In this document: one piece after another, positions 46,530-56,594 of the stretch
Position numbering within the stretch: the stretch's first letter is position 1
How the letters are laid out: each line of letters opens with the position of its first letter
Source: Natrialba swarupiae
Lineage (GTDB): Archaea; Halobacteriota; Halobacteria; Halobacteriales; Natrialbaceae
NCBI RefSeq assembly: GCF_008245225.1
Contig: NZ_VTAW01000004.1
Location: 62,001 to 126,000 of the forward strand
DNA length: 64,000 bases
Direction: 5' to 3'
The notes under the pieces: model-generated
What the model was told of the DNA's origin: nothing
Databases searched by the model: none
Seen by the model: the letters and a program-made list of their open reading frames with translations, nothing else
Translations under genes and position numbers: made by a program

Positions 46530-49500
46530 ATGGCTATTGATGAGGCCGACCAGTCGGATGCCGGGGAATTTTCCGAGGGCGAGGCATCCGATCCCGCGTC
46601 GGAGGAACGATCGGATTCTGGTGTGGGCTCACACGTCCGGGTTGGCGAGTATACGTGGGCCGATTTCATGGAGGAGTACGGGTACGGTGACGAGGTTTCG
46701 ACCCTGTATTCTGGAGCCGGTTCCAGAGATCCCAGCGACCAACTCGGGTTGGATACCGACGAAGGCAGTGGCGCGGTTCCACGCGCCGACGACTGGGACC
46801 GCGTGACGTTCGATCCCGAGGCATATCTCGGGTATCAACCGGACGAGCTTCCTGAACAGGTTCTCCCGATCTGTGGAACCAAATCCGAACGCCTTCAGGA
46901 CCAGTTTCTCGAGCATTGCGATCCCGAGACGACACCGGTCGTCAAGGATGTCTGGTCGTGGGAACACTACAAGTGGGAAACGTACTACGACGAAAACGGC
47001 AACCGACCACGCGACAGTAGCGGTGAGATCGTCCCGTTCGACGGGGAAGAAGCGCTCGGATTCGACCCCGACCACGTCGAGGAACAGCTCTCGCTCGGCG
47101 ACGATATCGCGATGGCCTTAGACGAGGTCATCGAGGAACGGACGGTTTCCATCCAGGAGGAGATCGACGAAGACGAGTTCTTCTCGACCGACGCCGGTAA
47201 CACGACCGTCACCAACCGGTACGACCTCGAGAAGGCAGTTCCACTCGAGAAAAAGAGCCACTTCAGGGAAGTCGAGCGCTACTGGGTGAACAAACCCTAC
47301 GCTTGTGTTATCATCTTCCATTCCGAACGGGAAAACGAGAAGAAGTACTACGTTATCGAACCGTACTTAAACGAGATCGAACTGGAACTCAAGGAGTTTC
47401 TCACCGGAAAACTCCGACGAGCGATCAAGTACTCCGAGGAGGGTGTCAAAGAAAAGACGAGCGAGGACGGCCGTCGAACCGTCATCGAAGACGAAACGAG
47501 AAAGCTCCTCAAGCGGTACGACCTCTTCGAAGCGATGGGAGGGAACACGAAAGCCGGGTTCCTCGCCTCGCTGCGGTCGGCGCTTTCGAGTGACGGCGAC
47601 ATCGACGGCGAAGCTGATGAACTCCAAGGGATCGAGGTTCGCCCTGAACCGCTCATCCTCGATGAGGACCCAGACACGTTAAACGAGTACCAGGTCGAGA
47701 AGCTGCTGTACCTACTCAAGCGCGACTTCATCGGCTACGAGCGAATCGACGGGATCAAACACGACATCAACGTCGAGGACATCTCCTGTGACGGCTACAA
47801 CTCGCCGGTGTTCGTCTACCACTCCGAGTACGAGCAGATCATCTCCAACATCTACCACGGTGAGGACGAACTCGACGATTTCGTCGTCAAACTTGCCCAG
47901 CGATCCGGGAAAGGGATCAGTAAACGACTGCCACAGGTCGACGCGACGCTCCCGGACGGCTCTCGTGCACAACTGACACTCGGCAAGGAGGTTTCCGACC
48001 ACGGAACCAACTACACCATCCGTCAGTTCAAAGACGTTCCGTTTACCCCGATCGACCTCATCAACTGGAACACGTTCAGCTTAGACGAGATGGCGTTTCT
48101 CTGGTTGGCGATCGAGAACCACAAGAGCCTGATCTTCGCTGGCGGTACTGCATCCGGGAAAACGACCTCGCTGAACGCCGTCTCGCTGTTCATCCCGAGT
48201 AACGCGAAGATCGTCTCCATCGAGGACACCCGCGAGGTCGAACTCCCACAGCGAAACTGGATCGCGAGCGTCACACGCCCGTCGTTCAACGACGATGCAC
48301 AGGGTGACGTCGACGAGTTCGACCTCCTCGAGGCCGCGCTTCGTCAACGCCCCGACTACATCGTGATGGGTGAGATCCGTGGTGAGGAGGGTCGAACGCT
48401 GTTCCAGGTCATGTCGACGGGTCACACTACGTACACGACGTTCCACGCTGACTCCGTCGACGAGGTCCTCAAACGGTTCACGACGGATCCGATCAACGTC
48501 TCGAAGACGATGTTCACCGCGTTGGATCTGGTCTCGATTCAGACGCAGACGCGAGTCCAGGGGACGAAAGTCCGTCGAAACAAGTCACTTACCGAGATCA
48601 ACCACTACGAGGCCGAACACGACGAGATCAACGTTCAGGACGTCTACCAGTGGCAGGCCGAAACCGACGAGTTCCTCAAGATGGGGGACTCGAACACCTT
48701 AGAGGAGGTCCAGTTCGACCGTGGATGGAGTACGGAGAAACTGCAGGAAGAACTGTTCAAACGCGAAGTGATCCTCGCGTACCTCATCAAAAACGAACTC
48801 AACACCTACGCCGAGGTCGCGGCGACCGTTCAGGCGTTTATCAACGACCCCGACACGATCCTCACACTCATCGCCAACGGCCAACTCGAGGACAGCCTGA
48901 ACGACCTCCGGGAGATGGAAAGCGTGTTGATCGACGTCGACCAGGAGAAAGAGGAACTGGTTCCCCGCCCATCCGCGACGAGCGAGACGTACAATCTCTC
49001 GATGGATATCCTGGAGCGAGCGGAGGAGTCGTTGTTCGACGAGTACCGCGGAAAGGTTCCGAGCGGGCTCGCGAGTGCACTCGGCGACGTCGAAGCCGAG
49101 GAAACAGTCGAGGTCGAGTCGGACGACGAGTTCGACTTCACGAGCGGACTCGACGAGGCGGAGTGGGCGTTCGAAGACGAGAGTTCCGATGCCGACTCGA
49201 ACGCAGGCATTGACGACGAGGGCGAACCGGAGTGGTTCGGCGAGGACGATGGGGTCGGATCGCCGGCCGACACCGAGGCACTCGAGCCGGTCGATGGATC
49301 GGCTGATCGCTCGACCGGGGAACCAGCGGCGGCGTCGACCGAAACGGATCCCGCCGATGTATCCGAATCCGGCGACACAGCACGCGCTGATTCACCGAGT
49401 TGGGAATCCGACGACACGAAACCGACGTCCGGGGAGACGACCGGCAAAGCGGACGTTCCTGACGACGAAACGCTGGGCGGCCTGTTCGACGACATGGACG

Positions 49501-49880
49501 AGACGTTGGAATCGATGGGTGACCGTCGTTCCGACGACGATCCGAACACCGGTGAGAGCGATCCGATGTTCCCCGAGGGAGAACTTGACGCTGTCTTCGA
49601 TCCAGAGCAAGACGGCGAAGAGACATCCGCCGACTTCAGCAGCGAACTCGACGATACGCCCGCTGGAAATACTGGACGGGCGGAGACGGATCAATCGGAG
49701 GCTGTCGAGGGATCGGATCCCGAATCAATCTTCGGGACGCATCCGAGTTCACCGTTCAGCGACGACGTAGACGACGGTGCTGGCGACGAAGGCTCTCTGT
49801 TCGGAGATGATTCGGACGACGACGAATCGCTGTTCGGCCGCGGGAACGGTACGACTGACGACGAGGAGACCGACACATGA
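46530..49880 (+). CDS. type II/IV secretion system ATPase (TadA/PilB-like) with acidic tail
   Basis: Assembly motor of 1116 residues. The ATPase core covers about 330-740: an N-terminal domain, Walker A FAGGTASGKTTSLNAV (from about residue 538), Walker B/Asp box around EIRGEEGRTLFQV and His box STGHTTYTTFHADS. After about residue 850 comes a ~265-residue tail rich in Asp, Glu and Ser, ending with repeated xFG motifs (ESIFG, GSLFG, ESLFG). The tail is not needed for the fold and is unusual. It overlaps the TadC-like gene by 4 nt. ATG at 46530 is preferred over the GTG at 46509. Confidence 0.93.
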   Translation: MAIDEADQSDAGEFSEGEASDPASEERSDSGVGSHVRVGEYTWADFMEEYGYGDEVSTLYSGAGSRDPSDQLGLDTDEGSGAVPRADDWDRVTFDPEAYLGYQPDELPEQVLPICGTKSERLQDQFLEHCDPETTPVVKDVWSWEHYKWETYYDENGNRPRDSSGEIVPFDGEEALGFDPDHVEEQLSLGDDIAMALDEVIEERTVSIQEEIDEDEFFSTDAGNTTVTNRYDLEKAVPLEKKSHFREVERYWVNKPYACVIIFHSERENEKKYYVIEPYLNEIELELKEFLTGKLRRAIKYSEEGVKEKTSEDGRRTVIEDETRKLLKRYDLFEAMGGNTKAGFLASLRSALSSDGDIDGEADELQGIEVRPEPLILDEDPDTLNEYQVEKLLYLLKRDFIGYERIDGIKHDINVEDISCDGYNSPVFVYHSEYEQIISNIYHGEDELDDFVVKLAQRSGKGISKRLPQVDATLPDGSRAQLTLGKEVSDHGTNYTIRQFKDVPFTPIDLINWNTFSLDEMAFLWLAIENHKSLIFAGGTASGKTTSLNAVSLFIPSNAKIVSIEDTREVELPQRNWIASVTRPSFNDDAQGDVDEFDLLEAALRQRPDYIVMGEIRGEEGRTLFQVMSTGHTTYTTFHADSVDEVLKRFTTDPINVSKTMFTALDLVSIQTQTRVQGTKVRRNKSLTEINHYEAEHDEINVQDVYQWQAETDEFLKMGDSNTLEEVQFDRGWSTEKLQEELFKREVILAYLIKNELNTYAEVAATVQAFINDPDTILTLIANGQLEDSLNDLREMESVLIDVDQEKEELVPRPSATSETYNLSMDILERAEESLFDEYRGKVPSGLASALGDVEAEETVEVESDDEFDFTSGLDEAEWAFEDESSDADSNAGIDDEGEPEWFGEDDGVGSPADTEALEPVDGSADRSTGEPAAASTETDPADVSESGDTARADSPSWESDDTKPTSGETTGKADVPDDETLGGLFDDMDETLESMGDRRSDDDPNTGESDPMFPEGELDAVFDPEQDGEETSADFSSELDDTPAGNTGRAETDQSEAVEGSDPESIFGTHPSSPFSDDVDDGAGDEGSLFGDDSDDDESLFGRGNGTTDDEETDT

Positions 49881-51949
49881 GCCTTCAAACCGACGACGCA
49901 GGGATCGGTGAGAGCGACGGTCTCTCCGGCGGGACGGATGCACTCGGCGACGCGTTCTTCCCGCTGTATCGTCGCCTGTTCGACGAGAACAGCGAGTTCG
50001 TCGCCGACGTCGAGACAAAACTCTCTCAGGCCCGAATGACCGATACAGTCGAGCTCTACCTCTCACGGGCGCTCGGTATCGGCGTCATTTCTGGATTTGC
50101 CCTCTGGCTGATCGGGCTGGTCCTCGGCTGGGCCGTCTTCGGAACAGGTCTAGTCCAGGTCGACTACCTCATCGGCATTCCGGTCGGAAACGAAACTGCA
50201 CTTACACTCATCGACCTGCTCCGTGCACCCGCGCTCGTGATCATCGTTGGACTCGTATTCGGGACGGTCGGGTTCGTCCTCGGGTTTGGCTCGCTCGTTG
50301 CTATCCCCTACTCGCGCGTCTCGAATCGCAAACGCGAGATCAACATGTTGCTCACCGATTCGGTCTCGTTTATGTACGCGCTGTCGGTCGGCGGACTCAA
50401 TCAACTCGAGATCATCGAGGCGATGGCTGAAGCTGACGACACCTACGGTGAGGTATCAAAGGAGTTCCAAAGCATCGTCAAGGAGACCGACTACTTCGGC
50501 GTCGACTACCGGACTGCCATTCGGAAACAGGCGATCGAGACGCCGAGCGACGAACTGTCGCAGTTTTTGACGGACATGCTCTCGATCGTCAACAGCGGCG
50601 GTGACATGCAGAGTTTCCTCGAGGACAAGAAAGAAAAGCATATGCGAACCGCCAAACAGGAACAGGAAATCACACTCGAGACGCTCGAACTGTTCGGTGA
50701 GATGTATATGACGCTGTCGCTGTTCCCGTTGCTGTTGATCATCATCATGGTCGTCATGCAGATGATTCCCCAGGCCGACGTGGCGGATAGTCTGCTCTTT
50801 ATGACCGTCTACGCGTTGATTCCGTTGATCGGTGTCGCGTTCATCGTTCTCGTCTCAACGGTCAAACACGACGAGCCCGGCGACGGCTACCTGACGATGG
50901 GTGGCACCGGTCGACGCGTACAGGATCCCCGCGATCAAGGCGTGCTCAACCTCGGTCTGATCAACCAGTTTGCCGGCGAGCGAAGCGTCTTCGACCGGAT
51001 CAAAAACCGGGAAGGCGCACACGAGACGGTGAACGTCTTGCGACGGCCGCATATTTTCTTCCGTGACAATCCACTCTACACGCTCGCGTTGACTGCGCCG
51101 ATCTCGATTGCGATCATCGCCGTCGCGGTCGTCATCGGATCCGCGCCCACGACATGGAGTGGAACGGATGGACTGCTAGACCATCCCATCTGGGGAACGG
51201 TCATCTACGTCTATATCCCCCTGTACGTTATGGCGATCCCACTCGCCATCTTCAGCGAGTGGAACCTCAGACACCGAAACGCGGTCGTCAGCCAACTGTC
51301 CGAGGACCTTCGAAAGCTCTCGAGTTCGAACGACACCGGACTGACCCTGCTCGAGTCCCTCAAGACGGTCTCGGATACGACCAGCGGAAAACTGGCCCAG
51401 GAGTTCGAGACGATGCACGCGAAGGTCAACTACGGGATGAGCCTGAAGGAGTCGCTCATCGAGTTCAACAACAAGTATCACATTCCGAGACTCGCCCGGA
51501 CGACTCGACTCATCACCGAAGCACAGGAGGCGTCCAATCAGATCTCCGACGTGCTTCGGACGGCCGCCCAGGCCAGCGAGAACCACGACGATCTGGAGCG
51601 AGAACGGCGCTCTCGAACCCGGATGCAGGTCGTCATCATCATCATGACGTTTATTACGGTTCTGGCCGTGATCGCGATCCTCAAGACGCAGTTCATCGAC
51701 ACGATGGCCGGCCTCGAGACGGGTAACGGCGGTGCATCCGGTGGCGACGGCGAACTCGCGGACGCCGACCTGAGCGAGAACGTCGACGTTCGGATGCTGT
51801 CGGTGTTGTTCTTCCACGCGATTACGCTCCAGGGAATTATCTCCGGATTCATCTGTGGGTATATCCGGAACGCGGATCTCACGAGCGGGTTGAAATACGT
51901 GGTAATCCTGTCGACGGTCGCGCTGTTTGGCTGGTCGATGGTGGCTTGA
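49877..51949 (+). CDS. TadC-like (type II secretion F family) pilus platform protein
   Basis: Membrane platform of 690 residues, double length. Two GspF-type domains are seen: one around 165-285 (SVSFMYALSVGGLNQLEIIE; LDMLSIVNSGGDMQSFL in pattern) and one around 470-580 (LRKLSSSNDTGLTLLESLKT; VNYGMSLKESLIEFNNKYH). About nine membrane helices, at 55-85, 115-140, 275-300, 310-330, 405-425, 440-465, 590-610, 640-660 and 670-690. It receives force from the ATPase encoded just upstream and assembles pilins. Archaeal homologues of this length are usual in Tad-like systems. Confidence 0.93.
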   Translation: MSLQTDDAGIGESDGLSGGTDALGDAFFPLYRRLFDENSEFVADVETKLSQARMTDTVELYLSRALGIGVISGFALWLIGLVLGWAVFGTGLVQVDYLIGIPVGNETALTLIDLLRAPALVIIVGLVFGTVGFVLGFGSLVAIPYSRVSNRKREINMLLTDSVSFMYALSVGGLNQLEIIEAMAEADDTYGEVSKEFQSIVKETDYFGVDYRTAIRKQAIETPSDELSQFLTDMLSIVNSGGDMQSFLEDKKEKHMRTAKQEQEITLETLELFGEMYMTLSLFPLLLIIIMVVMQMIPQADVADSLLFMTVYALIPLIGVAFIVLVSTVKHDEPGDGYLTMGGTGRRVQDPRDQGVLNLGLINQFAGERSVFDRIKNREGAHETVNVLRRPHIFFRDNPLYTLALTAPISIAIIAVAVVIGSAPTTWSGTDGLLDHPIWGTVIYVYIPLYVMAIPLAIFSEWNLRHRNAVVSQLSEDLRKLSSSNDTGLTLLESLKTVSDTTSGKLAQEFETMHAKVNYGMSLKESLIEFNNKYHIPRLARTTRLITEAQEASNQISDVLRTAAQASENHDDLERERRSRTRMQVVIIIMTFITVLAVIAILKTQFIDTMAGLETGNGGASGGDGELADADLSENVDVRMLSVLFFHAITLQGIISGFICGYIRNADLTSGLKYVVILSTVALFGWSMVA

Positions 51950-51950
51950 G

Positions 51951-52487
51951 ATGAGCCGAGAACGATCACGAACCGTTTCGGTCGGGCTCGACGAACGCGG
52001 GCAGACGACCCAGGATTTCGTCGTCGGACTGGGGCTGTTCGTCCTCGCCGTCGCGTTCGTCTTCATGACGGTTCCGAACTTCATCGCAACCCCGACGGGA
52101 TCGATCGACGGAGGGGATCTCGCTCAAGGCGACCGAGTTGCGGCGACGATCGTCGACGACACCGAAACGGAAACACCGAACGAACTCGACGGGAGGGACA
52201 TCCTCGAATACGACAGCGGTGACTTGCACAAAGATCTCGGATTGCGGGAAACCAGCGACAACGATCGGTTCGATAGAGTGAACGTGACGGTCAGGGCGCT
52301 GAACGCGACGGCGGACGATGGCCCCCTAGAGGCGGATCTTCCGGGTGCTATGGATGGCGAGCAACTTGCATTCGGGGACGAGTACAACAACCAATCTGCC
52401 GTACAGGTGAACCGAATCGTCACGGTTCGGGACATCGAGGAGGATTACGACGGAAAACCGGTGAGACTCGAGGTGCGGATGTGGTAA
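51951..52487 (+). CDS. pilin-like protein 1 (DUF7287-like)
   Basis: Protein of 178 residues with a type IV pilin-like N-terminus: basic-acidic leader, then LDERG-QTTQDFVVGLGLFV. The predicted prepilin peptidase site is after RG, with Gln at +1 and an acidic residue at +5, followed by one hydrophobic helix (to about residue 42). The rest is hydrophilic and acidic, so it is expected outside the cell. Family number is from memory. It starts 1 nt after the TadC-like stop, second of five such proteins' common operon. Confidence 0.75.
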   Translation: MSRERSRTVSVGLDERGQTTQDFVVGLGLFVLAVAFVFMTVPNFIATPTGSIDGGDLAQGDRVAATIVDDTETETPNELDGRDILEYDSGDLHKDLGLRETSDNDRFDRVNVTVRALNATADDGPLEADLPGAMDGEQLAFGDEYNNQSAVQVNRIVTVRDIEEDYDGKPVRLEVRMW

Positions 52488-52488
52488 C

Positions 52489-53136
52489 ATGAACGGGAAA
52501 CGACGATCACGAAACGACGACGGCGACGACCGCGGACAGATGTACACCCTCGAGGGGTTCGCCGCGGCTGCGGTCGTACTGTTCGCACTGTTGTTCGCGA
52601 TGCAGTCGGTAGTCATCGCACCGGGGACCGGTGGTGCGGTCGACCGGACGGCCCAGGCACAACAGCAACAGCAACTGCAGGACGGCCTCGTCGTCTCGGC
52701 ACACGCCGAGGAAGGAAATCTTTCGTCGATGGTTCTGTACTGGGCACAGAACGGATACCTCGAGAACGAACACTTCGAGGACGAAAACCAGAGCGGCGAG
52801 TACCCGTTCGCCCTGGCTGAAGTTCTCGAGGAGGAGTTCTCGGGGTCCGGAATTGGCGATGATTACACGATCGAGTTCGTCTACCAAAACGAAAGTACGG
52901 GAAACACGGAATCTGACTACATAAAGGAAGATACGTACACATCGGACGATCCGGGTGCCGTAACTGCGAGTTACATGATAACGATACACGAGGACCAGAA
53001 TATGACCGAAATGGATAACGGGACGCTCAGGGATAGTGATGAACCGATCCACACAGTGGACAGCGAACTCCCAAGGGGCGATCCGAATTCGGATCCTATC
53101 TACAACGTCGTGGAGGTGCGGGTGACGTCATGGTGA
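52489..53136 (+). CDS. pilin-like protein 2 (DUF7288-like)
   Basis: Protein of 215 residues. A charged leader ends in DDRG-QMYTLEGFAAAAVVLF, again a cut after RG with Gln at +1 and Glu at +6, then one hydrophobic helix. The extracellular part is acidic, with a glutamine run (AQAQQQQQLQD) just behind the helix. One nt after gene 1 and 7 nt overlap with gene 3. Archaeal class III signal peptides (Q-x-S-x-E type) are the nearest match. Confidence 0.75.
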   Translation: MNGKRRSRNDDGDDRGQMYTLEGFAAAAVVLFALLFAMQSVVIAPGTGGAVDRTAQAQQQQQLQDGLVVSAHAEEGNLSSMVLYWAQNGYLENEHFEDENQSGEYPFALAEVLEEEFSGSGIGDDYTIEFVYQNESTGNTESDYIKEDTYTSDDPGAVTASYMITIHEDQNMTEMDNGTLRDSDEPIHTVDSELPRGDPNSDPIYNVVEVRVTSW

Positions 53137-54062
53137 CGAACAAATCCCACGACCGGGCGCAGATGATCCTCATAGGCGGTATCGTCATCGCGTTTGTCAT
53201 CCTCGCGACGATCGTCGCGTTTAACGGGTTAGTTCACACCGAAGAACTTTCTTCGAGTTCGACGGGCCAGAGCGCAACCGACGTATCGGTAATGAATAGC
53301 GAAATCACGCAGGATCTTCAGACGATTGCCGTCAAGAGTCCCGAAATTGACGAAGATGACGACATCGGAGAGGTCCTCGAAAACGAAGACGCGGAGGACG
53401 TGTTCTTAACGGAAGCCGAATGGCAGAGCATGGTCGAGGATAACTACGAACCCGAATACCGATCAGCGAAAGCCCAGAATCGCTCAGTTGTCTTCGATAT
53501 AGAGAGTGCGAATGAGGGGGCAACTCTTGGTGTGAATTTAGATGGCAGAAACACAGGTGGTGGCACTACTGGTACCTTCGACATTTTTGATGCAGATGAT
53601 TTTGACAGAGGGAAGGTTTATCACTTCAGCCTCACGGGTTCCACGTCTGCCAACGTCGCTGGGGAATACGAAATTAATAATGAAAGCGGTGCTGACGTCA
53701 CGGTAGAGTACTCCAGGGGTGGCGGAACCGATCCGTTCGAGGTGACTGTTGACGGAGAAACGTGTTCGTTCGATAGCGATACTGGTGAGATCGATTTAGT
53801 AACCGGTGAGGTAACAGATCAGGTTGGGGGATCCTGTGATGAGGATGATTTTTCGGTAATCGACCCTGACGCCATCTACAATTCGATCGATGTACACATT
53901 AGTATGCCCGGGAATCCCGAGTACGAAATCATCGGCCTTGGCGAGGTTCCCGAGGCAGACAATGAGGTCCCCGGAACCCTGGAGATTGAGTACACGTACG
54001 AGTCGATGGAGGTCCAGACAGAACAGGCGATTGAAGTCGATCTGTACCGTGATCTGTTATGA
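53130..54062 (+). CDS. pilin-like protein 3 (DUF7261-like), mosaic middle
   Basis: Largest of the five, 310 residues. Leader HDRA-QMILIGGIVIAFVILA gives a site after RA with Gln at +1. The C-terminal ~60 residues and the first ~120 have normal GC-rich codons. The middle (about residues 118-245, nt 53480-53870) uses many A/T-ending codons (GGT, GAT, TTT, AAT, TTA, AGA), unlike neighbours, and adds two cysteines. That patch looks acquired or fast evolving in the exposed domain. 4 nt overlap with gene 4. Confidence 0.75.
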   Translation: MVTNKSHDRAQMILIGGIVIAFVILATIVAFNGLVHTEELSSSSTGQSATDVSVMNSEITQDLQTIAVKSPEIDEDDDIGEVLENEDAEDVFLTEAEWQSMVEDNYEPEYRSAKAQNRSVVFDIESANEGATLGVNLDGRNTGGGTTGTFDIFDADDFDRGKVYHFSLTGSTSANVAGEYEINNESGADVTVEYSRGGGTDPFEVTVDGETCSFDSDTGEIDLVTGEVTDQVGGSCDEDDFSVIDPDAIYNSIDVHISMPGNPEYEIIGLGEVPEADNEVPGTLEIEYTYESMEVQTEQAIEVDLYRDLL

Positions 54063-54535
54063 AACGCAACCAATTCACAGACGACCGTGCCCTCTCGAGT
54101 GCCATCACCCACGTCCTCACGATGGCGATGACGACAATTCTCATCGCCGGACTCTTCTTGAGTTCGGGTGCGATGCTCGAGACCCAGACCGAAATGAGTA
54201 CCGAGCAGTCACTCGAGACGATCGGCGAGCGGTTGGCGGGCGAAATCGCCCACGTCGATCGGTTGGCTGACGATGGCGGTGCGGTGAATGTTACGACCGA
54301 GCATCCCCGAACGATCGCGGGGTCGACGTATCGCGTCCACCCATCGGGGGACTGTGGGAGTGATCCGTTGCTGAGAGACGACGTACAGTGTCTCAACCTG
54401 ACGACGGGAAGCGGGGGGACGCAAGTACTCGTTCCACTCCCGGAGGACCTCGAGATCGATTACGATAGTTCGGCATCGTCCGGAACCATCGAAATCGGGT
54501 ACGACCAGAGCGAGGATGAAATCCGCCTGCAATGA
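54059..54535 (+). CDS. pilin-like protein 4 (DUF7266-like)
   Basis: Protein of 158 residues. The leader TDDRA-LSSAITHVLTMAMT resembles the archaeal pilin start (RAVSPVIG type): cut after RA, then one hydrophobic helix to about residue 42. The remainder is an acidic beta-rich domain with two cysteines (SGDCG and DVQCLN) that could form a disulfide. Overlaps neighbours by 4 nt on both sides. Confidence 0.75.
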   Translation: MKRNQFTDDRALSSAITHVLTMAMTTILIAGLFLSSGAMLETQTEMSTEQSLETIGERLAGEIAHVDRLADDGGAVNVTTEHPRTIAGSTYRVHPSGDCGSDPLLRDDVQCLNLTTGSGGTQVLVPLPEDLEIDYDSSASSGTIEIGYDQSEDEIRLQ

Positions 54536-55353
54536 TCCGAAATTCGCCACCGAGAATCAATCAAGGGAGCCAGGACGAGCGAGGAGTTACCGAACTGCTC
54601 AGCTTCATCCTGATCTTCGCGATCGTCCTCACGTCAGTCGTTCTCGTCGGACTCGTCGGGTTTCAGGCCGTCGAGGACTATCACGAAAACGAACGACTCG
54701 CGAACGCGGAGCGCGCCGTCGATACCTTCGCCACCAACGGTAACGAATTTGTGCGAAGTGACGCCGTGACACACCGATCCGGTGACGTCAGGGTCAGAGG
54801 CGGGACGATCTCACCGGGTGAGGAAGGGACGGATCTCGACGTTACGGTTCAGGACAACTCTGGAGCCGAACTCTGGTCGTGGAACGACGAATACGGCTCC
54901 GACGACCTCGGTGCGTTCGTCTACGATAGCGGTGACGCCTCCGAAACGATCGCGTACGTCGGTGGCGGCGTCTTCCGCCAGAGCGACGGCTCGAGTGCAG
55001 TCGTCTCGGAACCGATGTTCACCTGCCGCGAGGAGACGGACACGGCGATGATATCGCTCGTGAAAATCGACGACGATAGCCGATCGATCCAGAGCGCCGA
55101 AGCGACCGAGTTCGAGATAGAACACCGAGACAGTACGAGAGAGTTCTTCGACGAGGATATCGATTCCGTCGAAATCGAGGTCAACGACGGCCCGTATGCA
55201 GACGGCTGGGAAATGTACTTCGAGAACGACGATAGTTGGGAGTCGATGGGTTCGAACCAGTGGCGATGTGGTGATCCATCTAATGATCTCGACCGCGTCT
55301 CAATCGATATCGTCGAGATCGACATCGACTACGAATCGCCGGACGACGATTGA
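54532..55353 (+). CDS. pilin-like protein 5 (DUF7289-like)
   Basis: Protein of 273 residues. The leader QDERG-VTELLSFILIFAIVL has Glu at +3 after the cut behind RG and one hydrophobic helix (to about residue 45). The C-terminal domain is acidic, with cysteines in FTCREE and WRCGD. This is the last gene of the operon and overlaps the HsdR-N-like gene on the other strand by 25 nt. A class with a single helix and a larger domain could cap the pilus tip. Confidence 0.75.
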   Translation: MIRNSPPRINQGSQDERGVTELLSFILIFAIVLTSVVLVGLVGFQAVEDYHENERLANAERAVDTFATNGNEFVRSDAVTHRSGDVRVRGGTISPGEEGTDLDVTVQDNSGAELWSWNDEYGSDDLGAFVYDSGDASETIAYVGGGVFRQSDGSSAVVSEPMFTCREETDTAMISLVKIDDDSRSIQSAEATEFEIEHRDSTREFFDEDIDSVEIEVNDGPYADGWEMYFENDDSWESMGSNQWRCGDPSNDLDRVSIDIVEIDIDYESPDDD

Positions 55354-56594
55354 TCCCAGTCACCGGTCAACAACACGCGCAGGCCCGCTCGAGCGGTGAG
55401 CGCTTCGACACGAGCCGAGTGATCGTCGACGTCGCCGCCGGTCTCGAGGTAGAGTCCGTTCGAGAGCTGTCGGTCGGCGTCCATCGGCGTGTCGTCGGCT
55501 CGCCGTGGCTCGTCGTTGACGACTGTGTTACCGTCGTCGGGTCCCCAGGGAAGCCTGATTCCGGAGAGTCCGCGTTCGAAGAGGTACTCCGCCGCGTGGA
55601 CGAGCGCCCGATCGGATCGCGAGTGGCCGATCGCCCCGATCGAACCGCGCTCGTTGAAAAAGCGCGCGACGTACTCGCCGTCGCCCTCCACGGACGTTTC
55701 CTCGTCGTCTTCGGTCGCATTCCCGTCGGCACTGTCGCTTTGCTCGTGCGTTCCGACGTCGGTTCGGTCGTTCGCCTGGTCGGCGGACTCAGACTCGACG
55801 TACTGCGTTTCGCCGTCGTCCGACCGATCGATCGTCGGTGGCGTCGAGTCCTCGGGAGACGGTCCATCTTGGCCGGTTCCCGCTTCTGGCGGCAGGTGCC
55901 CGTCGTCCGAGTCCGTCGGTTCGGTAAATCGCAACGAGACAGCCTCGGGTTCGGGATCGAACCGATCGTTCTCGTCGCCGGAAAACGAGACGACCAGCCG
56001 GTCGAGAAACCGATTGGTCGCGGACTGAATCTCCCCGTCGTACGCCCCACCGTTCCGGAGCGTCGACGTTACCTGGTCGACGATCGATTCGACGAGTTCG
56101 TCGCGCTCGAGTGCGAGTTGCCGGGCGACGTCTTCGCGGGAGTGACGCTCGAGACGCCGTCTCGCAGCATCCCGCGAGAAGTGTGCAAGCGACGATTCGT
56201 GGTCGGCCAACGACGGGAGACGACAGGCGAGTCGGTCGACGTCGGTCGTCCCCGCGAGCAAGAAGAACTCGCGTCCGTTCGTGTAGACGGTCCTGTCGAC
56301 GCCGGTCCACGACATCGCCTCGAGAAGGTTCCGTGCTCGGGGTTCTTCGAGGGGCTCTCCGTAGGGTTCGATGGCGACGAATACGGCTGGAATCGAGTCC
56401 GCCGAGAGGACGTATTCGATCCGAACGTCCTCGATACTGACGTCCGTCGTCGAATCCGCACGGACGTCCCAGCCGAGCGTCTCGAGGAGGGGTTCGACGA
56501 TCCAGGTTCGCGTTTCGCGTTCGGTCGTCGGCGGCGAGGAGTCGATCACCGTCCGCGAGCGAGCGACGAACGAAGGGAGGTCCGGGCCGGTCAT
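55329..56594 (-). CDS. HsdR-N-like (PD-(D/E)XK) domain protein with disordered middle
   Basis: Protein of 421 residues. The first ~115 residues follow the type I restriction R-subunit N-terminal pattern (TERETRTWIVEPLLETLGWD; VRIEYVLS; VFVAIEPYGEPLEEPRARNL; VYTNGREFFLLAG). The catalytic E-x-K strand reads IEPYG, so the lysine is absent and nuclease activity is doubtful. Residues ~215-300 are a long acidic disordered stretch. The C-terminal part (about 305-415) has strand-helix pattern of no known family. It lies 70 nt downstream of cheR on the same strand. It could be part of the che transcript, but its role is unknown. Confidence 0.65.
   Translation of the reverse strand: MTGPDLPSFVARSRTVIDSSPPTTERETRTWIVEPLLETLGWDVRADSTTDVSIEDVRIEYVLSADSIPAVFVAIEPYGEPLEEPRARNLLEAMSWTGVDRTVYTNGREFFLLAGTTDVDRLACRLPSLADHESSLAHFSRDAARRRLERHSREDVARQLALERDELVESIVDQVTSTLRNGGAYDGEIQSATNRFLDRLVVSFSGDENDRFDPEPEAVSLRFTEPTDSDDGHLPPEAGTGQDGPSPEDSTPPTIDRSDDGETQYVESESADQANDRTDVGTHEQSDSADGNATEDDEETSVEGDGEYVARFFNERGSIGAIGHSRSDRALVHAAEYLFERGLSGIRLPWGPDDGNTVVNDEPRRADDTPMDADRQLSNGLYLETGGDVDDHSARVEALTARAGLRVLLTGDWDQSSSGDS

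Follow-up and report, generated by a model that had tools for sequence, protein, structure and literature searches.

Does a tight row of genes for one assembly ATPase, one membrane platform and five different pilins encode a single surface machine in a haloarchaeon, and of which kind? The question is raised by the plus-strand genes at 46530-55353 of a 64,000-nucleotide stretch of the Natrialba swarupiae genome (contig NZ_VTAW01000004.1, positions 62,001 to 126,000), here called the window. The host of the locus is a Natrialbaceae haloarchaeon close to Natrarchaeobius, and the closest named relative of the window is Natrarchaeobius chitinivorans. In a preliminary description, made from the letters of the window, the genes were presented as a tight seven-gene Tad-like pilus operon. 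All seven open reading frames (ORFs) were confirmed, with no gap between them; the spacings in gene order are -4, +1, +1, -7, -4 and -4 nucleotides. Since intergenic spacing stays between -7 and +1, a single transcript is likely. Taken as a whole, the operon is probably best explained as the haloarchaeal PilB4-PilC4 type IV pilus (T4P) locus, a real machine of a kind already described and not a new type of device.

Identity of the seven-gene row

The first gene (46530-49880) encodes a PilB4-type assembly ATPase of 1116 residues, with a VirB11/T2SSE core, an N-terminal extension and a long acidic C-terminal tail. The core (PF00437, E = 1.1e-31) lies at residues 463-681, with about 460 residues before it and about 430 after it. 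A PilB3_C domain was recognised as well (29.5 bits), and the N-terminal region recurs in most Halobacteriales genomes. The gene for the PilC4/TadC-family membrane platform (49877-51949) adjoins the ATPase gene with a 4-nucleotide overlap; its 690-residue product contains two T2SSF domains (PF00482, two stretches, E = 1.2e-28). An ATPase with extra N- and C-terminal domains, a TadC-like platform and co-encoded prepilins with class III signal motifs are the features of the PilB4 (HVO_1160) locus of Haloferax volcanii, with which the window was compared through its published description: the extra ATPase domains are specific to Halobacteria, and the system has its own pilins, among them a predicted major pilin (arCOG03926) and a minor pilin (arCOG02911; Makarova et al., 2016, Figure 4B; PMC4858521). 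Haloferax loci differ by an extra large convergent DUF7289 pilin, which the window and other Natrialbaceae lack. In H. volcanii pilB4-C4 is transcribed (PMC4371748), and the PilB4 protein has been detected only in cells on GMM medium (PMC7305310). Upon virus infection of H. gibbonsii, pilB4-C4 drop together with the archaellum genes (PMC12542753).

The C-terminal tail of the ATPase (48870-49880) is acidic, with 33% D/E. In the tails of 99 haloarchaeal relatives, short [SG][LI]F[DEG] motifs were observed 195 times, against about four in shuffled tails. The motif-rich examples are from Natrialbaceae, and Haloferax tails have no such motifs. The tail is possibly an array of binding peptides.

Other known systems are less similar. 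The haloarchaeal PilB1/PilB2 systems (subclade 4C; Halobacterium salinarum pil-2, PMC4292770) also have an ATPase-platform-pilin operon, and some pilin families are common to them and the PilB4 systems (Makarova et al., PMC4858521); however, their ATPase is placed in another clade, thought to be of Crenarchaeota origin, and that of PilB4 systems in clade 2 of the archaeal ATPase tree. Bacterial Tad has related ATPase and platform families and is thought to be derived from archaeal T4P, but it has separate TadB and TadC proteins with one T2SSF domain each, whereas the window encodes both domains in a single protein, the usual archaeal T4P form (PMC6668835). Tad membership was excluded on this ground, and the Tad-like label was dropped. 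TadZ, a secretin and other Tad genes are absent from the seven-gene operon, to which the search for them was confined.

Five predicted prepilins and how they differ

All five genes downstream of the platform were claimed to have an acidic-Arg-Gly/Ala motif directly before a hydrophobic helix. We applied a FlaFind-type rule, [KRDE][GA][ALIFQMVED][ILMVTAS] immediately followed by a hydrophobic stretch without charges, to the 220 ORFs of at least 100 residues in the window, and it was passed by these five pilins only. The first, DUF7287 (51951-52487; PF23958, E = 2.2e-34), has the predicted cut ERG/QTTQDF, and the second, DUF7288 (52489-53136; PF23959, E = 3.6e-46), DRG/QMYTLEG. The third (53130-54062) has the predicted cut DRA/QMILIG and is DUF7261-like: its match to PF23922 (E = 4.6e-4) is below the curated cut-off, and its family was built from relatives. 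DUF7266 follows (54059-54535; PF23928, E = 6.8e-17; DRA/LSSAIT) and is the smallest, and DUF7289 is last (54532-55353; PF23960, E = 3.2e-47; ERG/VTELLS). The mature lengths after the predicted cut would be 161, 199, 300, 147 and 255 residues in gene order. The preliminary description was also correct that several of the pilins have cysteines: the last three have two each and the first two none.

The motif is near-invariant in family alignments. Statistics were taken over 118-176 members per family, from 40 further and 80 named loci, the DUF7289 family including large paralogues. A strict motif stands beside the helix in 92-100% of the members of each of the five families, and position -2 is arginine in 96-100% of the strict-motif members. 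In these same members, 98-100% of those of DUF7287, DUF7288 and DUF7261 have glutamine at +1; in DUF7266 and DUF7289 this residue is mostly valine. When the pre-helix residues were shuffled, the per-protein chance of the motif was 4-10% for four pilins, and the null was uninformative for DUF7288 (P = 1); the real evidence for the motif is therefore its conservation in the families.

A common cleavage site does not by itself make one machine. The genome encodes one recognisable type A24 prepilin peptidase (PF01478), and in most archaea one PibD-type peptidase processes all prepilins of the cell (PMC4371748). We therefore rejected the common motif as proof of a single machine. This leaves room for a reading in which the pilins are independent proteins with only a secretion route and a neighbourhood in common. 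It is very improbable in view of their strict co-occurrence, of an order kept in haloarchaea as well as in other archaeal families, and of the duplication of entire blocks (see below).

The exposed domains were said to be unrelated, and profile-profile comparison of the heads related no pair. Two types of N-terminal helix can be distinguished: DUF7287, DUF7288 and DUF7261 have a Q type, and DUF7266 and DUF7289 a PilA-like V-S type. In clean profile comparisons DUF7266 and DUF7289 were related over the helix (92% probability), and helices of the V-S type matched PilA-type pilins of the same genome with 51-54% probability. A strong DUF7266-DUF7289 similarity seen in iterated searches was discarded: the iterations had mixed the families, and clean profiles relate the helix only.

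The families also differ in a conserved acid. An aspartate at +5 is found in 100% of DUF7287, a glutamate at +6 in 97% of DUF7288, and a glutamate or aspartate at +3 in 78% of DUF7289, large paralogues included; DUF7261 and DUF7266 have no corresponding conserved acid. The same acids are present in many sequences outside Halobacteriales. Nearly all bacterial pilins have an acid at +5, but only a subset of archaeal pilins does (PMC4371748). The differently placed acids hint at an ordered hetero-oligomer, in which the order of the stack would be set by them.

AlphaFold2 models were built from alignments of relatives. For DUF7289 a 60-residue helix and a beta domain were predicted (predicted local distance difference test, pLDDT, 91.6; predicted template modelling score, pTM, 0.82), and for DUF7288 helices and a beta sheet (pLDDT 79.9). 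Foldseek found no significant match to either model in the PDB, so no solved relative of the DUF7288 and DUF7289 heads can be recognised. When solved structures were searched by sequence, DUF7289 had no match and DUF7287 had implausible ones only.

A V-R-V-x-W-like conserved C-terminal tail is common to DUF7287 (52470-52487) and DUF7288 (53110-53136). A weak alignment of the two families (46% probability) also extends over the greater part of their length. Together, the common tail and the weak alignment suggest an old duplication.

The type II secretion system (T2SS; PMC6211770) and the competence (Com) pilus likewise combine one ATPase and one platform with five distinct pilins, and no member of the cassette is clearly an abundant major pilin. 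The genes could thus encode a pseudopilus-like device which pushes or secretes proteins and is not an adhesion pilus. We consider this quite unlikely. No other T2SS part (secretin, GspC/L/M) is encoded in the operon, although a genome-wide search was not made; and only DUF7287 has the acid at +5. Moreover, these archaea lack an outer membrane that such a device would have to cross. For the two modelled heads, out of five, no sequence match or significant fold match to solved pseudopilins was found. A T2SS-like device is without support from the operon.

A major pilin, arCOG03926, has been predicted for the PilB4-PilC4 system (PMC4858521). The claim that no major pilin is recognisable was therefore only partly borne out: no cassette member is clearly an abundant major pilin, but DUF7266 and DUF7289 have PilA-type helices. 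Our best guess for the major pilin is DUF7266, from its small size and PilA-like helix, and we guess that it is the candidate for arCOG03926. DUF7289, multi-copy and variable in length, is probably the candidate for the minor pilin arCOG02911.

Conservation of the pilin cassette

The pilins occur together almost without exception. In family (profile) searches, DUF7287 and DUF7288 were found above cut-offs in 101 of 126 Halobacteriales genomes, the same ones for both families, a 102nd DUF7287 match being a fragment in G016. DUF7289 was found in 115 of the 126, often in several copies, and all three families were matched in the control genome, Haloferax volcanii. Gene order was examined in 80 named haloarchaeal loci which had been fetched through DUF7288, so that the sample is conditioned on this family. 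The five-pilin order is kept in 77 of them and the complete ATPase-platform-five-pilin order in 72, and the seven-gene order also in the Haloferax elongans and H. mucosum loci (L115, L131). DUF7261 is the most variable member of the cassette and the one most often missing (L052, L069, L071, L122).

The association weakens at the border between platform and pilins. DUF7287 matches were used to choose 12 loci from other families of the phylum. The pilin order is the same in all 12 as far as the contigs reach, and an ATPase and platform are nearby in one only (L190), on the opposite strand. Four genomes (G009, G011, G025, G037) contain the pilins with weak matches only to the N-terminal region of the ATPase. 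Conversely, nine genomes of one genus (G005, G034, G053, G061, G069, G077, G085, G093, G105) contain the extended ATPase without DUF7287 or DUF7288. In two of these, G105 and G005 (L056, L057), the ATPase and platform are followed by a single large DUF7289-like pilin, and in G053 (L055) the platform is broken; the ATPase gene is broken in G057 (L058). These four loci look like reduced or decaying versions of the system. Since each is found without the other, the pairing of the ATPase-platform genes with the cassette is not obligatory. The conserved unit is the pilin cassette and not the seven-gene operon: the co-occurrence of seven families, proposed as a check on the preliminary description, is nearly strict among the pilins and breaks at this border. 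The cassette is also duplicated as a whole block, twice beside one ATPase-platform pair in haloarchaea (L053, L054) and as two cassettes in a row in two of the outside loci (L181, L182). Gene order and co-occurrence thus argue for a coherent gene unit, and the single machine proposed from tight spacing and a common processing site keeps that much of its basis; the common site does not prove it.

Very long ORFs lie between the duplicated cassettes (L053:5219-9127, 1302 residues; L054:8937-15827, 2296 residues). They begin in the manner of a pilin, have a DUF7289-like match and are possibly giant pilin-anchored surface proteins.

The number five was claimed for the subunits, and it is true for the window but not general. 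A large DUF7289 paralogue is convergent to the cassette in 28 of the 80 named loci and in none of the 41 loci from Natrialbaceae, as judged from organism names. The five-subunit picture is therefore specific to Natrialbaceae, and many relatives outside this family have a sixth, large pilin. In most of the outside-family loci, too, a larger second DUF7289 protein comes after the cassette. Elsewhere in the genome of the window, one other DUF7289 match was found, a weak one.

The co-retention of collinear, single-copy genes could also be explained by a heteropolymer without a major pilin, in which five subunits alternate or stand in a fixed ratio and the family-specific acids (+5, +6 and +3) fix the order of neighbours. 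Such a filament seems to us rather unlikely: some cassettes that are otherwise complete lack DUF7261, which means that the subunits are not all needed, and the sizes of the heads are strongly variable.

Assembly of a possible filament and neighbouring genes

For a PilB4-PilC4 pilus, the following assembly may be proposed. The five prepilins would be inserted in the membrane and cut after R-G/A by the PibD-type peptidase of the cell. The ATPase-driven platform would then extract the pilins one by one into one filament with a core of N-terminal helices. A fixed, one-copy cassette with unrelated heads looks like a priming or tip set together with a shaft subunit. The best guess for the repeated shaft unit is DUF7266 or an unlinked PilA-type pilin, and DUF7287, DUF7288, DUF7261 and DUF7289 may be low-copy subunits in a set order, in priming, at the tip or interspersed. 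The likely role would be attachment or surface contact.

Several points weigh against the PilB4-PilC4 reading. In the literature searched, no filament is tied to this locus, no phenotype is reported for it, and the PilB4 pilus has no established function. Cassettes often occur without an adjacent ATPase, some ATPase-platform pairs occur without a cassette (L055-L057), and nine PilA-like (Pilin_N) matches elsewhere in the genome could supply a shaft. Any arCOG number given to the five pilin families is tentative. Some of these points would equally fit a different arrangement, in which the five (elsewhere six) pilins are a minor-pilin module for priming or the tip only, the shaft consists of PilA-type pilins with genes at other loci, and the module may be served by more than a single ATPase-platform pair. 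The collinear outside-family cassettes, the duplicate cassettes beside one ATPase and the Pilin_N matches are consistent with it, as is the finding that in H. volcanii PilB3-C3 can stand in for PilB1-C1 (PMC6491452). However, in 72 of the 80 haloarchaeal loci the cassette lies next to the ATPase and platform genes, and the PilB4 system has been held unlikely to depend on PilA, given its own predicted major pilin (Makarova et al., PMC4858521). We regard this arrangement as a serious alternative, though probably not the correct one. Somewhat more doubtful is a bolder proposal, that the five or six pilins of the cassette form an obligate hetero-oligomer of fixed order, which is conserved in much of the phylum. 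The position of each pilin in the stack would be set by the acid of its family (D+5 in DUF7287, E+6 in DUF7288 and E/D+3 in DUF7289; DUF7261 and DUF7266 have none). Such an oligomer would serve archaea as a tip or pseudopilus complex, and different ATPase-platform pairs could drive it.

On the minus strand, a gene without an assigned function (55329-56594) converges on the end of the pilin operon and overlaps it. Beyond it, up to 63863 on the same strand, CheR-, CheD-, two CheC-, CheA- and CheB-like genes were named by eye from their sequences. The convergent gene stands beside the pil locus in 46 of the fetched loci and CheR in 33, nearly all of them from Natrialbaceae.

The type of system has already been published, with the roles of all pilins but the predicted major and minor ones called unclear (PMC4858521). 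By the present data the question raised by the locus is narrowed to three testable matters: the cassette as a conserved unit, the sixth large member which the Natrialbaceae locus is without, and the differently placed acids in three of the five families. A reduced version of the system exists naturally in the genomes that have only the ATPase, the platform and a single large pilin.

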